Shown one piece after another: positions 4,146 through 9,883 of a stretch of DNA of 64,000 nt. The notes beneath the pieces are model-generated. The model had not been told where the DNA came from. It saw only the letters and a list, made by a program, of their open reading frames with translations, and searched no databases. The translations under genes and the position numbers were made by a program. The first letter of the stretch is position 1. Every line of letters begins with the position of its first letter. Source of the DNA: Pseudomonas sp. LB-090624 (GTDB lineage Bacteria > Pseudomonadota > Gammaproteobacteria > Pseudomonadales > Pseudomonadaceae); assembly GCF_003205205.1 (NCBI RefSeq), contig NZ_QJRL01000003.1, positions 186,001 to 250,000 of the forward strand. The letters are read 5' to 3'.

Positions 4146-5663
4146 TCAAAGCTCGCGGCGGTCCCTGAACATGATGTACAGAGGCACCACGCCAGCATCG
4201 GGAGGAAACACCACCACGTAGTCGTCGAACTCAACCTGGGACAAGTCCGCAAAACGGTCTATCAAAGGTACTTTCGGCATATGGAGGAAGCCGATGCTCG
4301 GGGGGCTCGCGAGATCCTTGAGCGCATTCGGCGCGCGGCCCTTCTGCCACAACACGGTCACAGGCGCCTTGCCCTCGCTGGTGAACGCAAAAACCTGCCG
4401 CGTGGCATCCCAGCCAGCCGCCCGAACTCGCACCCCTGAGGGGACAACCGCCCCCTGAGTGACTGTCATGACGACATGGGAGTATAGGGTAAACGGCTTG
4501 ACGCCCACACTGGTGCCAGAACTAGTGCCGTGTACTGTTGAGCACAAGCGCACGGGCAATTCCACTTCAGCCCTTGCTGCCGCCAAGGCTGCCCAGTCCA
4601 GATCCTCGCCAGAGAGCATTTCAACCAGCGGCACCGTCATCGCAAAGCGGGGGTCATCGCTTGGCGTACCCAGCACGAATTCGACAACATCCGCATAGGT
4701 GCCGGGGTGTTGGCCTTCTACAGAGGTGGCCTGCCATGCCAGTTCTGCTGCTGCGGAGCGAAAAGTCTTGATCAGCTGATGCTGCTGTTGGGCCACCTCA
4801 AAGCTCAGGCCCTGCGCAGTCAGCAATGCCGGATGCAAACCTGCCGCCTGTGCATGCGCCTTTAACGTCAGTGGCCCATGGCCTGGTCCGGTTGCCGTGG
4901 TTCTGGCCAGTTGGGCGATACGCGCTTCCAGAGCTTCAATCAGCGTCACAGCTTGGGCGTACAAGCCGGGGTGGCGCGCTTGTGCCGCTGCCAATGCTTG
5001 GGCATGTAGTTGGCTACCTGCCGTGATTTCCTGCAGCACCACGGCCTGTATCGCCGCATTGAGAAACGGGCTGGAAGCATCCCGAACGGCGCCATCCCGA
5101 GCGAACCCGACCGACATCTGTAGCCGCTCGAGCTGGCTGACTGCACGCTTGGCTTGGTGCTGGGTGGTTTCCAGTGCACGCAGCGTGGCATGGCTTACGG
5201 TCAATTGCTGCTCTGGCGTGCTCGCGACAGGGTCAATGCCTAACTGCCGTTCAAGTGCTGTGAGTTGCAGCGCTGCCTGCTGCTGCGCAGCATGAACCTG
5301 TGCCACCAATTTGCGCACTTTCTCCAGGTTTTGGTTGGACGACCGGCTGGCACGCTGCTCGCGGGTCAGGTTCTGCTGGGGCGGTAGCGGCTGCACGGTC
5401 TGGCCCAGGAAGGCCGCGCGGCCGTTTTGCCGGTGCCATGCCTTTACCGTTTTAACGATGTAATCGGGAGAGTTGACGTTGCCAGTTTCGTCAGCGTTTG
5501 AGTAGAACAGGAGATCGCTGCCGGCGGGGTGGCCGACAATGTTGTTGAAGTGGGCGATCCACGCGTCATGCGAGGGCTTGTCGACATCTGCCTGCCAAAT
5601 AGCTTCGACCAGACCAAGAAAGGAATGCTCTTCGTACTGCTCCAGGCGGGGTTTGAGTTCCAT
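4146..5663 (-). CDS. Immunity-domain / pyocin-S-domain fusion protein lacking a nuclease tip
   Basis: 505 residues from ATG 5663, which has a good GAGG ribosome site 8 nt upstream. Residues 1-80 look like the colicin E / pyocin S immunity family: the segment HFNNIVGHPAGSDLLFYSN matches the HF..I..HP.GSDL.YY motif, followed by IVKTVKAWHRQNGR. A long Ala/Gln-rich helical region follows (about 85-330). The C-terminus ends in DDYVVVFPPDAGVVPLYIMF, the hallmark of the pyocin-S translocation domain, and the protein stops right there with no cytotoxic domain. Third gene of the bacteriocin operon, 35 bp after the preceding stop. It could be an immunity-carrying decoy, a delivery partner, or a relic of a bacteriocin whose tip was lost. 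The domain calls are by eye. Confidence 0.65.
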   Translation of the reverse strand: MELKPRLEQYEEHSFLGLVEAIWQADVDKPSHDAWIAHFNNIVGHPAGSDLLFYSNADETGNVNSPDYIVKTVKAWHRQNGRAAFLGQTVQPLPPQQNLTREQRASRSSNQNLEKVRKLVAQVHAAQQQAALQLTALERQLGIDPVASTPEQQLTVSHATLRALETTQHQAKRAVSQLERLQMSVGFARDGAVRDASSPFLNAAIQAVVLQEITAGSQLHAQALAAAQARHPGLYAQAVTLIEALEARIAQLARTTATGPGHGPLTLKAHAQAAGLHPALLTAQGLSFEVAQQQHQLIKTFRSAAAELAWQATSVEGQHPGTYADVVEFVLGTPSDDPRFAMTVPLVEMLSGEDLDWAALAAARAEVELPVRLCSTVHGTSSGTSVGVKPFTLYSHVVMTVTQGAVVPSGVRVRAAGWDATRQVFAFTSEGKAPVTVLWQKGRAPNALKDLASPPSIGFLHMPKVPLIDRFADLSQVEFDDYVVVFPPDAGVVPLYIMFRDRREL

Positions 5664-5698: not shown

Positions 5699-6205
5699 TC
5701 AACTGTCAGCCGGCTGGTGAACCTGATCACGCATGCGATCGTAGCCAGATTCTTTCAATGCAAACGACAGCCCTATCACATTCAAGGCCACGTCATATTT
5801 CACGATGGCCACCAACCCTGCATGCCCTGCGAGGTCGAATTTGTCCCACCCACCAACCTTGCCCATAGGCAAAGGCATCATGAAGGGACCTTTCGAGTCA
5901 ACTGGATCCCCCAAAATTTTCAGCGTTTGCTCGCGAGTAATACAGCTATCAAACGGCGGCGGAAGCTTATCCTGATAAACGGTTTTCGAAGTAGCTGTTG
6001 ACGCGATGGAGATAATTACAGACTCAAACCTTCTATCTTCAGCCCAAAATCTCAAGTTCAACCCGGGCGCCGGACGCAAATATACAGATAACGCACCTGG
6101 ATAAACTTCAATAAACTCAGTCAACCATGAGCCATCTTCGCGAATTAGTTCGTCTTGCGACTTCCCCAATTTTTTTAGATACGAATCCAGTTTTTGAGCA
6201 TTCAT
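5699..6205 (-). CDS. Probable bacteriocin immunity protein (DUF6392-like)
   Basis: 168 residues, no signal peptide or membrane segment. Its ATG overlaps the toxin stop (ATGA, 6202-6205), so it is translationally coupled to the large bacteriocin gene; a small gene directly after a toxin is the standard immunity position. The C-terminal motif PLPMGKVGGWDKFDLAG followed by a Y-x-V...L-x-F strand resembles a small family (DUF6392-like) found beside S-type pyocins. The plus-strand gene at 9416-9883 is clearly related. Immunity function is inferred from position and the repeated presence of the family in this locus. Confidence 0.6.
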   Translation of the reverse strand: MNAQKLDSYLKKLGKSQDELIREDGSWLTEFIEVYPGALSVYLRPAPGLNLRFWAEDRRFESVIISIASTATSKTVYQDKLPPPFDSCITREQTLKILGDPVDSKGPFMMPLPMGKVGGWDKFDLAGHAGLVAIVKYDVALNVIGLSFALKESGYDRMRDQVHQPADS

Positions 6206-8790
6206 TTATAAAGACCCTTCTGTTGATGGTGGGCGTGCAGCTGACGCCGGGCATTTTCAATTTCTGAATCGCTATATCCGTGCTCAAGCAACCCTGGCTT
6301 CAAGGCGTCCATATTGCTATCAACAGCTGCGCGGAGATCTGATGCATCTTTGCGCTGTTTTGCTGCATTATTTCGCCCTCCATATGTCTCACTGTACTTT
6401 CGATGCACTTCCACAGGGATCACTATGCTCGGCGCGGCCTCCAGCAGGCTCTTGATATCCTCCGGTGAAAGGTCAGGGTAGTTTTCAGTCAAAAAAATCT
6501 CGTAAGCTTTTCGTGACACAATGTGATCCACATCCATACGATCGTTGATGCTTCGGCGTCGTAAGTCCTTGTAATCACCGACCTCAAGCGGCCTGGCTGG
6601 CGTGTAGTTGACCAGCCCCGGTTCGGGTAGATCAGTTTCGCCTCCGAATCCAGGAATTATGGCCCCAGTTTCACTTGAAATTTCGCCCGGAAGTATTTCA
6701 AGACTTGGCCCCACGGGATCGGTGGGCGCGCCCGGGAGGATTCCCGGTAGCGAAGGTGCCACCGGCAAGCGCGTCGGACCGAGCAGTTCTGCACCAGGGG
6801 CCACCAGGGGTGTCCAGGTGCGCGTTGGCTGGCCTTGAACAACTGCCGGGTCAAAGGCCAGCGCCACACTGGAAGCGAACCAGGGCTGAAACGGCTGAGC
6901 GACTGTCAGCACGCCCTGGGCATCGGTGGGCCTGTGGATACTCAGTTGGTCGAGGTTATAGAGGCCGGAGCCAACGCCAACGGCAGATAGATGCCGGAGT
7001 TCGAACGACTGCCGTGCCCCGCTCCAACTCGCCCTCGGCGCAATAGGAGGAAAACCGTTGAGGATGCGCCGCTGGTTCAGTTCATCGAACTGCCCGAACA
7101 ACGCCTGCTCCGCTGCGATAGCCCGCCATACCGCACTTTCGAAAGCCGGCATATCGGTGAACTGGCGGCCGCGCAGCTGGTTGCCAACCTGTGCCGGCAC
7201 GGCCAAACCAGCAGCGGCCCCGTTGCCGGACCACCAGTTGCCAGCAACCGCTTGCCCTCTTCCGCTGACCACTCCGGTACCGGCTGGCGGCAGCACGAAA
7301 GAGAAATACTGAGGGGGTTGGCCAGGAATACAGACAATACAGTCGTCAAAGCGCAGGTCCACGCCTGCGCCAACCGGGACCACCTCCGGCGCAAGTGACA
7401 GCACTCTCCCTGTCGACCCACCTTCTACCGGCACGGCAGAACCACCGAGGACGATGGTTTTGTCAGAGGGCGTGGCGCCCTGGAGTCGGTAGGTTTCGGT
7501 CAGAGGATCGAAAACGGCATTTCTGACCCGTACCTCGGGCGCGATCCCGGCGCCTGTCGACGCCACCGCGACACCACTGCCTCCCGGCAGGTGCTCGATC
7601 TTGATGCGACTCGAGAGACGGGCCGAACCACCAGCATTGGCGATAGCCTGGAGGTCCTGCCCAGCCTCAACGCCCAGCAGATCAGCACGTACCCCCAGCC
7701 CTTCGAGTCGTCGCCGACGCTGGTCGGCAGTCAACTCGCCATCGCCCAGCACCGGGGAGTGCACCATAGCTGTAACCGACAGGCTAATGGCCTGACCGGC
7801 GCGTATCGCTGCGACCCTTAGCACTTCCTTGGCCGCATTGGCGATGGCCTGCTGGATGGCAGTAGCCACTTCCAACGCTACCTGTGCGCCGCCCTGGGTG
7901 AGCAACACACCACCGGCCTGGGCTGCACCAACTGGAGCCGTCAGCGTGGCGGCATCTCTCAGCCGCTGCAGTCGCTGGTCTTCATCCGCCTGTTGCTTGA
8001 AGCGAATCCGCGCTTCGCGCTGTTCAGCGTACTGTCGCTGCTGCTCCCGACTTGCCTCCCGCGCCTTCCAGACCTGCTCCTGCGCGGCATGTTCCACCAG
8101 CAACGCGGCCGAGCGCTCTGACAATTGCCTGATGGCCTCTTGCAGCAACCGGGCCTCCTGGGATGCCAGATAGGCTGCTTCCCAGTCGCGATGCAGTTGT
8201 TGCATCTGCACTGCGTTCGCCAGCTCTGACAGCCGCGCGGCATAGGCGTCCGCGCTTACACCCCGGTCAGCGAAAGCAGCCGCTCGTGCCTGATACTCGG
8301 TCAGCGCGCCTTGCTTTGCCGCAATGAGCCCTTCTGTCTCGTTACGTGCCTTGGTGATCTGGTAGAGCTGCCAGCGTTCGCTACCGTCATATTCTGGGCG
8401 CTTGCGTGCTGCATCGATTTCGCCTTGAAGCGCCTGGGTCAACCCCTGAGCCAGGCCTGCGAAGTGGGCGTCAAGCTGCACGCGCCGGTCTTCTCGTGCC
8501 TGGCTGTAGGCAGCTACTCGCTGCCGATGAGCGAGCGCTTGCGCTTCGGCGCGTTCAGCCGCAGCCGCGGCCTGGCGTGCTTGTTCTTCGGCCTGCGCCT
8601 TGGCCAGCGCAGCAGCGCGAGCTCTCGCCCGCTTTTTCCGGCGACGCCGGCTGGAACCACCAAAGCCACCACCGAAGCCACCGCCGCCGCCAATGCTGAA
8701 GAAGCCACCCCCGCCACCGCTTGAACCGGAAGAGCCTGGGGTGATAACTACGTCACCTGTTGAATTGTCGTTAAACGTGTTCTGAGCCAT
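6202..8790 (-). CDS. S-type bacteriocin with degenerate colicin-DNase domain and a separate C-terminal tip
   Basis: 862 residues. Order: Gly/Ser-rich N-terminus (15-46); basic stretch RRRRKKRARAR (48-58); long coiled coil rich in Ala/Gln/Arg/Glu (60-280); pyocin-S-like translocation region (about 330-505, ending FDDCIVCIPGQPPQYFSFVL); then a colicin E DNase-like region (505-622) recognisable from GTGVVSGRGQAVAGNWW, VPAQVGNQLRGRQF, and GARQSFELRH. The HNH active site is broken: ELHH has become ELRH (598-600) and the final His-x-x-x-His is missing. A Pro-rich linker (660-735) leads to a new tip (736-862) with DVDHIVSRKA and ETYGGRN, perhaps a different nuclease. The ribosome site AAGGAGA precedes the ATG. 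Coupled immunity-like gene follows. Secreted or released toxin killing related bacteria is the likely role. Confidence 0.7.
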   Translation of the reverse strand: MAQNTFNDNSTGDVVITPGSSGSSGGGGGFFSIGGGGGFGGGFGGSSRRRRKKRARARAAALAKAQAEEQARQAAAAAERAEAQALAHRQRVAAYSQAREDRRVQLDAHFAGLAQGLTQALQGEIDAARKRPEYDGSERWQLYQITKARNETEGLIAAKQGALTEYQARAAAFADRGVSADAYAARLSELANAVQMQQLHRDWEAAYLASQEARLLQEAIRQLSERSAALLVEHAAQEQVWKAREASREQQRQYAEQREARIRFKQQADEDQRLQRLRDAATLTAPVGAAQAGGVLLTQGGAQVALEVATAIQQAIANAAKEVLRVAAIRAGQAISLSVTAMVHSPVLGDGELTADQRRRRLEGLGVRADLLGVEAGQDLQAIANAGGSARLSSRIKIEHLPGGSGVAVASTGAGIAPEVRVRNAVFDPLTETYRLQGATPSDKTIVLGGSAVPVEGGSTGRVLSLAPEVVPVGAGVDLRFDDCIVCIPGQPPQYFSFVLPPAGTGVVSGRGQAVAGNWWSGNGAAAGLAVPAQVGNQLRGRQFTDMPAFESAVWRAIAAEQALFGQFDELNQRRILNGFPPIAPRASWSGARQSFELRHLSAVGVGSGLYNLDQLSIHRPTDAQGVLTVAQPFQPWFASSVALAFDPAVVQGQPTRTWTPLVAPGAELLGPTRLPVAPSLPGILPGAPTDPVGPSLEILPGEISSETGAIIPGFGGETDLPEPGLVNYTPARPLEVGDYKDLRRRSINDRMDVDHIVSRKAYEIFLTENYPDLSPEDIKSLLEAAPSIVIPVEVHRKYSETYGGRNNAAKQRKDASDLRAAVDSNMDALKPGLLEHGYSDSEIENARRQLHAHHQQKGLYK

Positions 8791-9062: not shown

Positions 9063-9419
9063 ATGCCTGAAAACATCACTCATGAGAAGACCTTCACCAT
9101 GCCAACTATTTGGCCAGAGATCCTCATCAAGATACTCATAAGAAAATACCCGAAACTCAGCTTTGCCAAGACCAAAGAAATATTACTGCAAACACCCTCA
9201 ATCGTTTTGCCCGAAGCCATACTGCCAAAATTCGATTTGGCATTTCACCTCATCAAGAACAAGAGGCATGCCGCAGGCGATCAACCTGGAGAGATATTGG
9301 CTGAGGTCGACCTTTTTTTCACCGCTTTGAACATAGCTTGGCCGGACAACGCTACACAACTCGGGAGCGCCAAGCAGAAGATAATCAGCCTTTATCAAAA
9401 CGGGGGATGGGTAGAATGA
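9063..9419 (+). CDS. Hypothetical protein of the bacteriocin locus
   Basis: 118 residues from ATG 9063 (an in-frame ATG at 9099 is an alternative). The family is not recognised. Mostly helical in look, with a hydrophobic start MPTIWPEILIKILI and no signal sequence. Its stop overlaps the start of the next gene (ATGA), so the pair is one translationally coupled operon. Composition is AT-rich like the rest of the island. Being coupled to an immunity-family gene, it could be a small toxin remnant, a second immunity protein or a regulator; nothing in the sequence decides this. Confidence 0.5.
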   Translation: MPENITHEKTFTMPTIWPEILIKILIRKYPKLSFAKTKEILLQTPSIVLPEAILPKFDLAFHLIKNKRHAAGDQPGEILAEVDLFFTALNIAWPDNATQLGSAKQKIISLYQNGGWVE

Positions 9420-9883
9420 ACCAATCAATAATTGATTCCTGGATAGAGCGACTTGGCCACCCGCACGCGTCATTAGTAACGCTGGGCCATTTGCCAGATA
9501 CACCTCTTGAAGTGGTATTCATGGGGCAAGAATCAGAAACTGCCACCCCTCTGCCCGGCCTCGAGCTGGAGTTTTCAACTGAGCCGTTAATTTTGAAGTG
9601 CGTGCATGTCAACGTGATCAGAACAATCCCCCAGGACCAACCCTATCAAGGCACGCTGCCCGATCGATTACAGGGACTTACAACCAGAAAAGAAGTCACC
9701 GAGAGATTCGGCCCTTCGTCCATGTCGCAGCCGCCCTTGCGAATGCCCTCCCCCTTGGGTGATACCGGGGGTTGGGACGTGTTTGCCTGGGAAAACACAA
9801 ACAACGTCCCCACCTTCGTGATGGTTCAATACAACACCGATCTACAGGTTTGCGACTTGGCCTTCTTCAGGGAGGGCATCTGA
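9416..9883 (+). CDS. Second immunity-like protein, paralogue of the 5699-6205 product
   Basis: 155 residues from ATG 9416, overlapping the previous stop by 4 bp. The layout matches the minus-strand immunity-like protein: a start MNQSIIDSWIERLG against MNAQKLDSYLKKLG, a middle PGLELEF against PGLNLRF, a TTRKEV...FG against TREQT...LG turn, and the shared signature P-x-PLG-x-x-GGWD-x-F followed by QYNTDLQVCDLAF. No membrane segment or signal peptide. It probably gives immunity to a bacteriocin not encoded here (orphan immunity) or is a duplicated copy that has diverged. Confidence 0.6.
   Translation: MNQSIIDSWIERLGHPHASLVTLGHLPDTPLEVVFMGQESETATPLPGLELEFSTEPLILKCVHVNVIRTIPQDQPYQGTLPDRLQGLTTRKEVTERFGPSSMSQPPLRMPSPLGDTGGWDVFAWENTNNVPTFVMVQYNTDLQVCDLAFFREGI

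Follow-up and report, generated by a model that had tools for sequence, protein, structure and literature searches.

The window analysed here is a 64,000-nucleotide stretch of Pseudomonas sp. LB-090624 (contig NZ_QJRL01000003.1, positions 186,001 to 250,000), which encodes a bacteriocin-like toxin of 862 residues (6202..8790, minus strand; an open reading frame (ORF) with an ATG start, assigned with Pfam). The toxin contains a colicin-type DNase domain whose catalytic site is dead, and a nearby gene encodes an immunity (Im) domain fused to an inner-membrane translocation (IMT) domain. We found that the dead DNase is probably kept as a docking domain for this Im-IMT partner, that an exchangeable tip would do the killing, and that the partner most likely completes translocation. 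Docking is likely; the partner may serve either import or immunity that does not depend on the tip.

In the mechanism we propose, an old colicin-type DNase would have lost catalysis and been retained as the docking domain. The partner, with its Im domain and intact IMT domain, would be encoded downstream of the immunity gene of the tip. Its fused Im would bind the dead DNase via a re-polarised form of the classical DNase-Im interface, which would avoid cross-binding with live DNase/Im pairs. The exchangeable tip, here a TseN-like DNase, would kill, and would be neutralised at home by a DUF6392 protein. The docked partner most likely would supply or complete the IMT module, which is split in the toxin.

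The toxin runs from a Gly-rich N-terminus through a long helical region to a split IMT domain with the dead DNase, a linker and the tip. A reading made from the letters of this DNA (the sequence-only reading) had seen the colicin E DNase pattern at residues 505-622, and the profile search and structure prediction that it proposed as checks both bore this out. In a whole-protein scan, Pfam Col-Pyo_DNase (PF21431) matched residues 506-622 (6925..7275, minus strand) with E 1.2e-26. The nearest PDB chain by sequence was the pyocin S8 DNase (6w0v, E 4.9e-21), with AP41 and colicins also close, and the predicted fold was that of a colicin/pyocin DNase (best match 6er6_B; target template modelling (TM) score 0.85, root-mean-square deviation 1.7 Å). 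In this model the 10-residue means of the predicted local distance difference test (pLDDT) were 56-89; a 495-residue model of the toxin was poor overall (mean pLDDT 58), and worst before the DNase. The fold is kept and the catalytic residues of an HNH nuclease are not: as had been noticed earlier, ELHH reads ELRH (residues 597-600; 6991..7002, minus strand) and both histidines of the final His-x-x-x-His are gone, as seen in the sequence and in the alignment to colicin E9 (H102R; H127 and H131 absent).

The same chassis was found elsewhere. A contig scan gave 17 loci and 398 Pseudomonas genomes gave more, making 41 distinct chassis loci in all, counted after 11 loci with identical dead domains had been removed; the partial chassis of genomes G366, G111, G158 and G106 stand outside the 41. 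In each genome, the searches scored only the top first-look candidates (7 for the chassis, 10 for the tip, 3 for the fusion and up to 4 class-wide), so that extra copies could be missed. Short cuts of genome matches (L020-L079) stood outside the ORF scan, and most were covered later at greater length. When the 41 dead domains were aligned to colicin E9, H102 was replaced in every one (Arg in 39, Leu in 1, Gly in 1), the place of H103 was taken by Tyr in 22, His in 11, Phe in 7 and Asn in 1, and H127 and H131 were gapped throughout. The dead domains of all 41 loci formed one monophyletic group in the tree (support 0.999).

The partner gene is as constant as the dead domain. Downstream of the tip immunity gene, all 41 chassis loci carry the Im-IMT fusion (frameshifted in L015 and L100), which rules out a private relic of this genome. 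The fusions are about 500 residues long; a helical stretch separates the Im domain, which comes first, from the Pyocin_S/IMT domain. That of the window, the proposed partner of the dead DNase by Pfam and locus comparison, has 505 residues (4146..5663, minus strand). Its Im domain (Colicin_Pyocin, PF01320, E 5.6e-16; 5409..5654, minus strand) carries Lys29 at the Im9 Glu30 position, and its Pyocin_S/IMT domain (4170..4592, minus strand) is complete by Pfam and by our own profile, with the DPY motif DYVVVFPPDAGVVPLY. Pfam found both Im and Pyocin_S in each of the 37 fusions scanned (of 41), and the fused Im domains were monophyletic (41/41, support 1.0). Among the 398 Pseudomonas genomes, the fusion was present in all 33 with a full-length match to the dead DNase plus linker and in 39 altogether, 38 of them near full length and one (G214) covering only positions 1-359 of the 509 of the profile; in the 6 fusion genomes beyond those 33, chassis pieces adjoin it. 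At E 1e-30 it was not found in any of 368 other genomes of the class. A DNase-like C-terminal remnant, truncated before HxxxH or otherwise dead, ends 4 of the 37 fusions scanned. These longer fusions (L018, L107, L109 and L111, three of which stop just before HxxxH) possibly represent an earlier stage of the partner. At a further locus (L161:3035-5525) an apparent deletion puts the first part of the dead DNase about 50 bases from the fusion, with the rest of the domain, the linker, the tip and the immunity gene gone.

Complexes of DNases with their Im proteins are the standard example of protein binding that is both specific and extremely tight. The counterpart of the Im-binding exosite, whose exact limits we take to be residues 72-98 of colicin E9, lies by alignment at residues 569-595 of the toxin (7006..7086, minus strand), and is preceded by the acidic residue E551 at the place of E9 Arg54. 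The exosite follows PMC4548480, according to which a salt bridge between Glu30 of the Im protein and Arg54 of the DNase is present in all solved DNase-Im complexes. Consistent with that, Arg54 was found in 20 of 20 ordinary pyocin DNases and 21 of 21 tip DNases; position 30 was Glu in all 20 ordinary pyocin Im proteins by aligned column (19 when counted back from position 39) and acidic in 19 of the 21 free Im proteins that serve as tip immunity. The dead DNases have no Arg at position 54 at all; it is Asp in 23, Glu in 12, Gly in 4, His in 1 and Asn in 1, that is, acidic in 35 of 41. The conserved Glu30 is missing from the fused Im of the window, which has Lys, as do 33 of the 41, with Arg in 4, Gln in 3 and Glu in 1 (37 basic); the sole acidic one is L015, whose Im part is frameshifted. 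In 32 of 41 loci both signs are swapped. The change at Arg54 was spotted before the literature on the bridge was known to us, and Im 30 was examined afterwards.

A scan for charge reversal over DNase columns 48-59 and 70-99 and Im columns 10-59 (over 30 of the 41 against over 25 of 41 others) passed only three columns, namely DNase 54, DNase 98 and Im 30. By offset, DNase position 98 is presumably residue 540 of colicin E7. That residue is among the positive residues that face Im helix II (PMC7884437). The fused Im otherwise retains the helix III hotspot of its family (D51 in 41/41, F54 in 40/41, Y55 in 36/41).

Conservation points to the same surfaces. In the 21 loci that hold both dead and live DNases, identity in the exosite was 0.88 for the dead versus 0.52 for the live domains, and at the catalytic positions 0.57 versus 1.0; for the Im proteins of these loci, loop 1 and helix II had identities of 0.67 and 0.73 in the fused versus 0.32 and 0.47 in the free form, and the far side (57-84) had 0.48 versus 0.84. 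L112 was left out of one of the alignments, and 4 of the 41 fusions out of another. In the 30 loci outside the clade of the window's toxin, the exosite ranked 7 of 89 alignment segments in conservation, against 82 and 84 of 89 in live DNases. Median dN/dS was 0.08-0.28 across all parts tested (Nei-Gojobori, with pairs partly saturated). We infer from these comparisons that the fused Im binds the dead DNase physically.

The IMT domain is split in the toxin and intact in the partner. Pfam Pyocin_S matched toxin residues 380-457 above the cut-off, but only with positions 1-80 of its 139, and the domain is interrupted by the dead DNase; the first half is placed at residues ~378-447 (7450..7659, minus strand). 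The Pro-rich linker which the sequence-only reading had described is indeed there (residues ~654-710; 6661..6831, minus strand), and it proved to hold something that had escaped notice, a weak match (10 bits, by our own IMT profile) to the second half of Pyocin_S/IMT. This profile was matched over its full span by 37 of 41 fusions and 2 of 41 toxins. The DPY motif has been reported for all nuclease bacteriocins examined (PMC5536347). In its strict form and at its proper site it was present in 38 of the 41 fusions, in 7 of 20 ordinary pyocins and in just one of the 41 toxins, which is not that of the window. Strict-DPY loss is therefore weakened as proof of a non-functional toxin IMT, because 13 of the 20 ordinary pyocins also have no DPY there. 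A looser hairpin pattern at the same site was found in 36 of 41 fusions, 3 of 41 toxins and 19 of 20 ordinary pyocins. Since passage of PyoG across the inner membrane needs its IMT domain (PMC9040868), the split domain in the toxin and the intact one in the partner suggest that the partner may supply translocation.

Among the 41 loci the tips were of two kinds, 22 colicin-type DNases and 19 TseN-like (the label of two frameshifted loci, L012 and L112, was assigned by hand). The 21 DNase tips that were aligned all have the four catalytic histidines; upstream of the tip the DNase is dead at all 41 loci, including the 22 whose tip is a DNase. Because the same dead domain, of one lineage, stands in relatives with a live DNase tip, death of the DNase predates the present tips, and a former tip left behind by the present swap is ruled out by these 22 relatives. 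Parsimony places 8 changes of tip label on the tree of dead DNases. The chassis of L009 and L014 are 96% identical, and the sequence from the fusion gene onward 97%, with no long match across tip and immunity gene; in L097 and L098 the flanks are 90-94% identical and the tip and immunity block again differs. The tip and its immunity gene thus form, from sequence comparison, a cassette swapped between fixed flanks. Displaced tips were seen nearby: an orphan DNase tip at L093, an orphan TseN tip at L104, and others at L007 and L009. Varied tips with their immunity genes on one chassis, and orphan or displaced tips near it, are the pattern of polymorphic toxins. The tip exchange that the sequence-only reading had proposed is therefore real, although the domain that precedes the exchanged part was dead beforehand. 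That the swap turned the old nuclease into a passive spacer is unlikely, given the single dead lineage under both tip types; and 'passive' is doubtful since changes in the Im-binding surface are matched by the partner's Im domain.

The tip of the window toxin (residues 733-862; 6205..6594, minus strand) contains both DVDHI (D755, H756) and ETYGGRN, in agreement with the different killing tip, marked by DVDHIVSRKA and ETYGGRN, that had been noted before. Its last 130 residues matched no Pfam or NCBIfam family above the cut-off. A PDB search with a profile of 8 tips found TseN (9J9W) at E 2.6e-4, and with 42 tips at E 9.8e-12; TseN was also the sole structural match of the tip model (pLDDT 88) at E < 0.001, with a TM score of 0.70. 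TseN is a DNase effector in which H254A alone abolished toxicity, with no DNA degradation, and that form was crystallised (PMC12574953). The His column of H796 is invariant across the 42 aligned tips, and H796 aligns with an Ala of the crystallised chain that is, by residue count, the place of H254A. By its homologous fold and equivalent of the essential His254 the tip belongs with TseN, and DNA degradation by it is predicted.

The toxin stop overlaps a DUF6392 gene (5699..6205, minus strand; ORF, Pfam), whose product is the probable cognate immunity protein of the tip. The C-terminal nuclease tip, by homology to TseN, and the overlapping gene are the arrangement of an S-type nuclease bacteriocin. 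Behind the tip, a DUF6392 gene was present at all 17 intact chassis loci with a TseN-like tip and at all 16 shorter carriers; none was found in the stretches examined at 5 further TseN-tip carriers (L135-L139). In L135-L138 the TseN-like tips end very long open frames, and L139 is cut by the contig start; immunity in these five may belong to another family. For the DUF6392 protein of the window, a PDB search up to E 1 gave no match, and no paper naming DUF6392 was found in the open-licence PMC literature.

Several observations weigh against docking with an import role. Im9 comes off when ColE9 is drawn in unfolded form across the outer membrane (PMC12927319), and a docked partner would have to survive such stripping. 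Only 7 of 16 other TseN-tip carriers reach the full span of our IMT profile, a measure that is harsh on divergent IMT domains; by Pfam, Pyocin_S was complete or nearly so in the 9 of those 16 that were scanned. The window toxin is among the 7 of 41 that are non-acidic at DNase 98, and in its clade (11 loci) conservation of the exosite is average (rank 60 of 89), with an exosite dN/dS of 0.21 against 0.12 for the whole domain. As both lineages are monophyletic, the many instances of the charge swap may go back to a single event, or to a few, passed on by descent. Finally, when loci were read by hand, the fusion was full-length beside 7 broken toxins (L012, L018, L112, G111, G244, G154 and G310), some of which may be sequencing errors, and broken beside none of 36 intact toxins; in 7 others (L015, L100, G366, G214, G158, G106 and G127) toxin and fusion were both broken or lost.

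Such lopsided loss, with the fusion outlasting the toxin, is the pattern of an immunity gene. The producer might accordingly retain the fusion, possibly at its inner membrane, as a protein that grips the dead DNase of incoming sister toxins; the dead DNase would then be a recognition tag, and protection would not depend on the tip. The evidence for docking (reversed charges, conserved interface) fits this equally. Moreover, the Im fold is an immunity fold, and the aligned fusions have Im at their very start, with no Gly-rich N-terminus before it; a live nuclease is seen in none of them. Immunity of this kind, however, leaves unexplained why the fusion has a complete IMT domain with a DPY motif, and the tip immunity gene is still there at 36 of 36 intact loci. 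In addition, all 39 fusions in the 398 genomes adjoin the chassis or pieces of it, counting the best 3 first-look candidates per genome. We regard it as unlikely overall, though it is the strongest competitor to docking for translocation.

We find it rather improbable that the dead DNase itself still contacts the membrane or FtsH and in this way assists passage of the tip through the inner membrane, while in the producer the fused Im would merely mask the contact. Earlier colicin work, cited in PMC9040868, proposed direct contact of the nuclease with the membrane during import, and the DNase fold is kept. PyoG without its nuclease still crosses the inner membrane (PMC9040868), however, and contact alone does not predict a reversed charge pair. 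Weakest is the notion of a jobless dead DNase beside a fusion that is a decayed second pyocin: although the DNase is dead everywhere, dead DNase-like ends persist in four fusions and conservation of the exosite is unremarkable in the window's clade, the low dN/dS, the retention of both parts at every locus, the reversal of both partners of one salt bridge and the high exosite rank in the other 30 loci make it very improbable.

Docking of the Im-IMT partner on the dead DNase, with the tip as the killer, thus remains our preferred reading. A bolder version is possible, though we put it forward tentatively, namely an obligate two-subunit bacteriocin in which the toxin-antitoxin interface would have become a structural joint, reciprocal loss (of IMT by the toxin, of the nuclease by the partner) would have led to mutual dependence, and the tip would be freely swapped. 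The sequences themselves show the lost catalytic site, the constant partner gene, the charge reversal, the IMT domain that is split on one side and intact on the other, and the exchange of tips; the binding, the roles of the tip and of DUF6392 and, above all, the action of the complex are inferred.

Divergent to the toxin gene lies a second tip and immunity pair (9063-9883), with comparable divergent pairs at L005 and L007. It consists of an orphan, degenerate TseN-like tip copy (9063..9419, plus strand; 19% identical to the tip, without the DH and IPxxVH/GGRN residues) and an orphan DUF6392 gene joined to it by an ATGA overlap (9416..9883, plus strand), which scores 22.1 of 25.9 bits, below the Pfam cut-off, and is found by our own profile. 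The source genome (L001) also encodes a second pyocin, of the ordinary kind, on contig C11 at ~109-112 kb; its DNase looks live, and two Im genes come after it. No consistent P-box- or LexA-like pattern was seen upstream of the first 12 chassis genes listed.

The TseN-like tip is not confined to the chassis. It was present in 58 of the 398 Pseudomonas genomes, and it also ends PAAR-Pyocin_S proteins (PAAR in 5 of 10 carriers scanned) and a hemagglutinin-repeat protein (1 of 1 scanned, L137; such frames have 2604-4567 residues). Five proteins with PAAR-Pyocin_S, a TseN-like tip and DUF6392 behind (L117, L121, L125, L127 and L130) are probable type VI secretion system (T6SS) effectors.

Here the enzyme seems to have been discarded in evolution and the grip retained, with the signs of the decisive charge pair exchanged; in most of the family the Im-binding surface, otherwise quick to change, seems fixed. 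A binding interface that once served toxin and antitoxin may have turned into a structural joint. If true, this would provide a natural orthogonal binding pair and let a single delivery chassis take various tips; it would also offer a way into the poorly understood passage of nuclease bacteriocins across the inner membrane. The dead DNase of this bacteriocin group has already been published by Sharp et al. 2017 (PMC5536347), citing Ghequire & De Mot 2014. In the open-licence PMC literature, as far as its texts were accessible and with most subscription papers outside it, no mention was found of the Im-IMT fusion, the reversed interface or tip cassettes on the chassis.

The Pseudomonas nuclease bacteriocins with tandem pyocin_S domains described by Sharp et al. 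(PMC5536347) are very probably the same family as the window toxin. The words 'fused' and 'fusion' are absent from the main text of that paper, and the parts of it covered here do not mention an Im-IMT partner, a change of interface or a tip cassette. TseN, a T6SS DNase effector of Acidovorax citrulli published in 2025 (9J9W, PMC12574953), shares with the window tip its fold and the equivalent essential His; the window tip, in contrast, is carried by a bacteriocin-like protein, and between its DUF6392 immunity and TsiN no link could be detected. PAAR-Pyocin_S and CdiA-like proteins of Pseudomonas bear the same TseN-like tip, with no dead DNase found in the stretches examined. Colicin E9-Im9 and pyocin AP41-ImAP41 have in common with the window system the DNase fold, the Im family and the hotspot Asp and aromatic residues, whereas the window system has no catalysis in this domain, a reversed Arg54-Glu30 pair and an Im domain fused to IMT.

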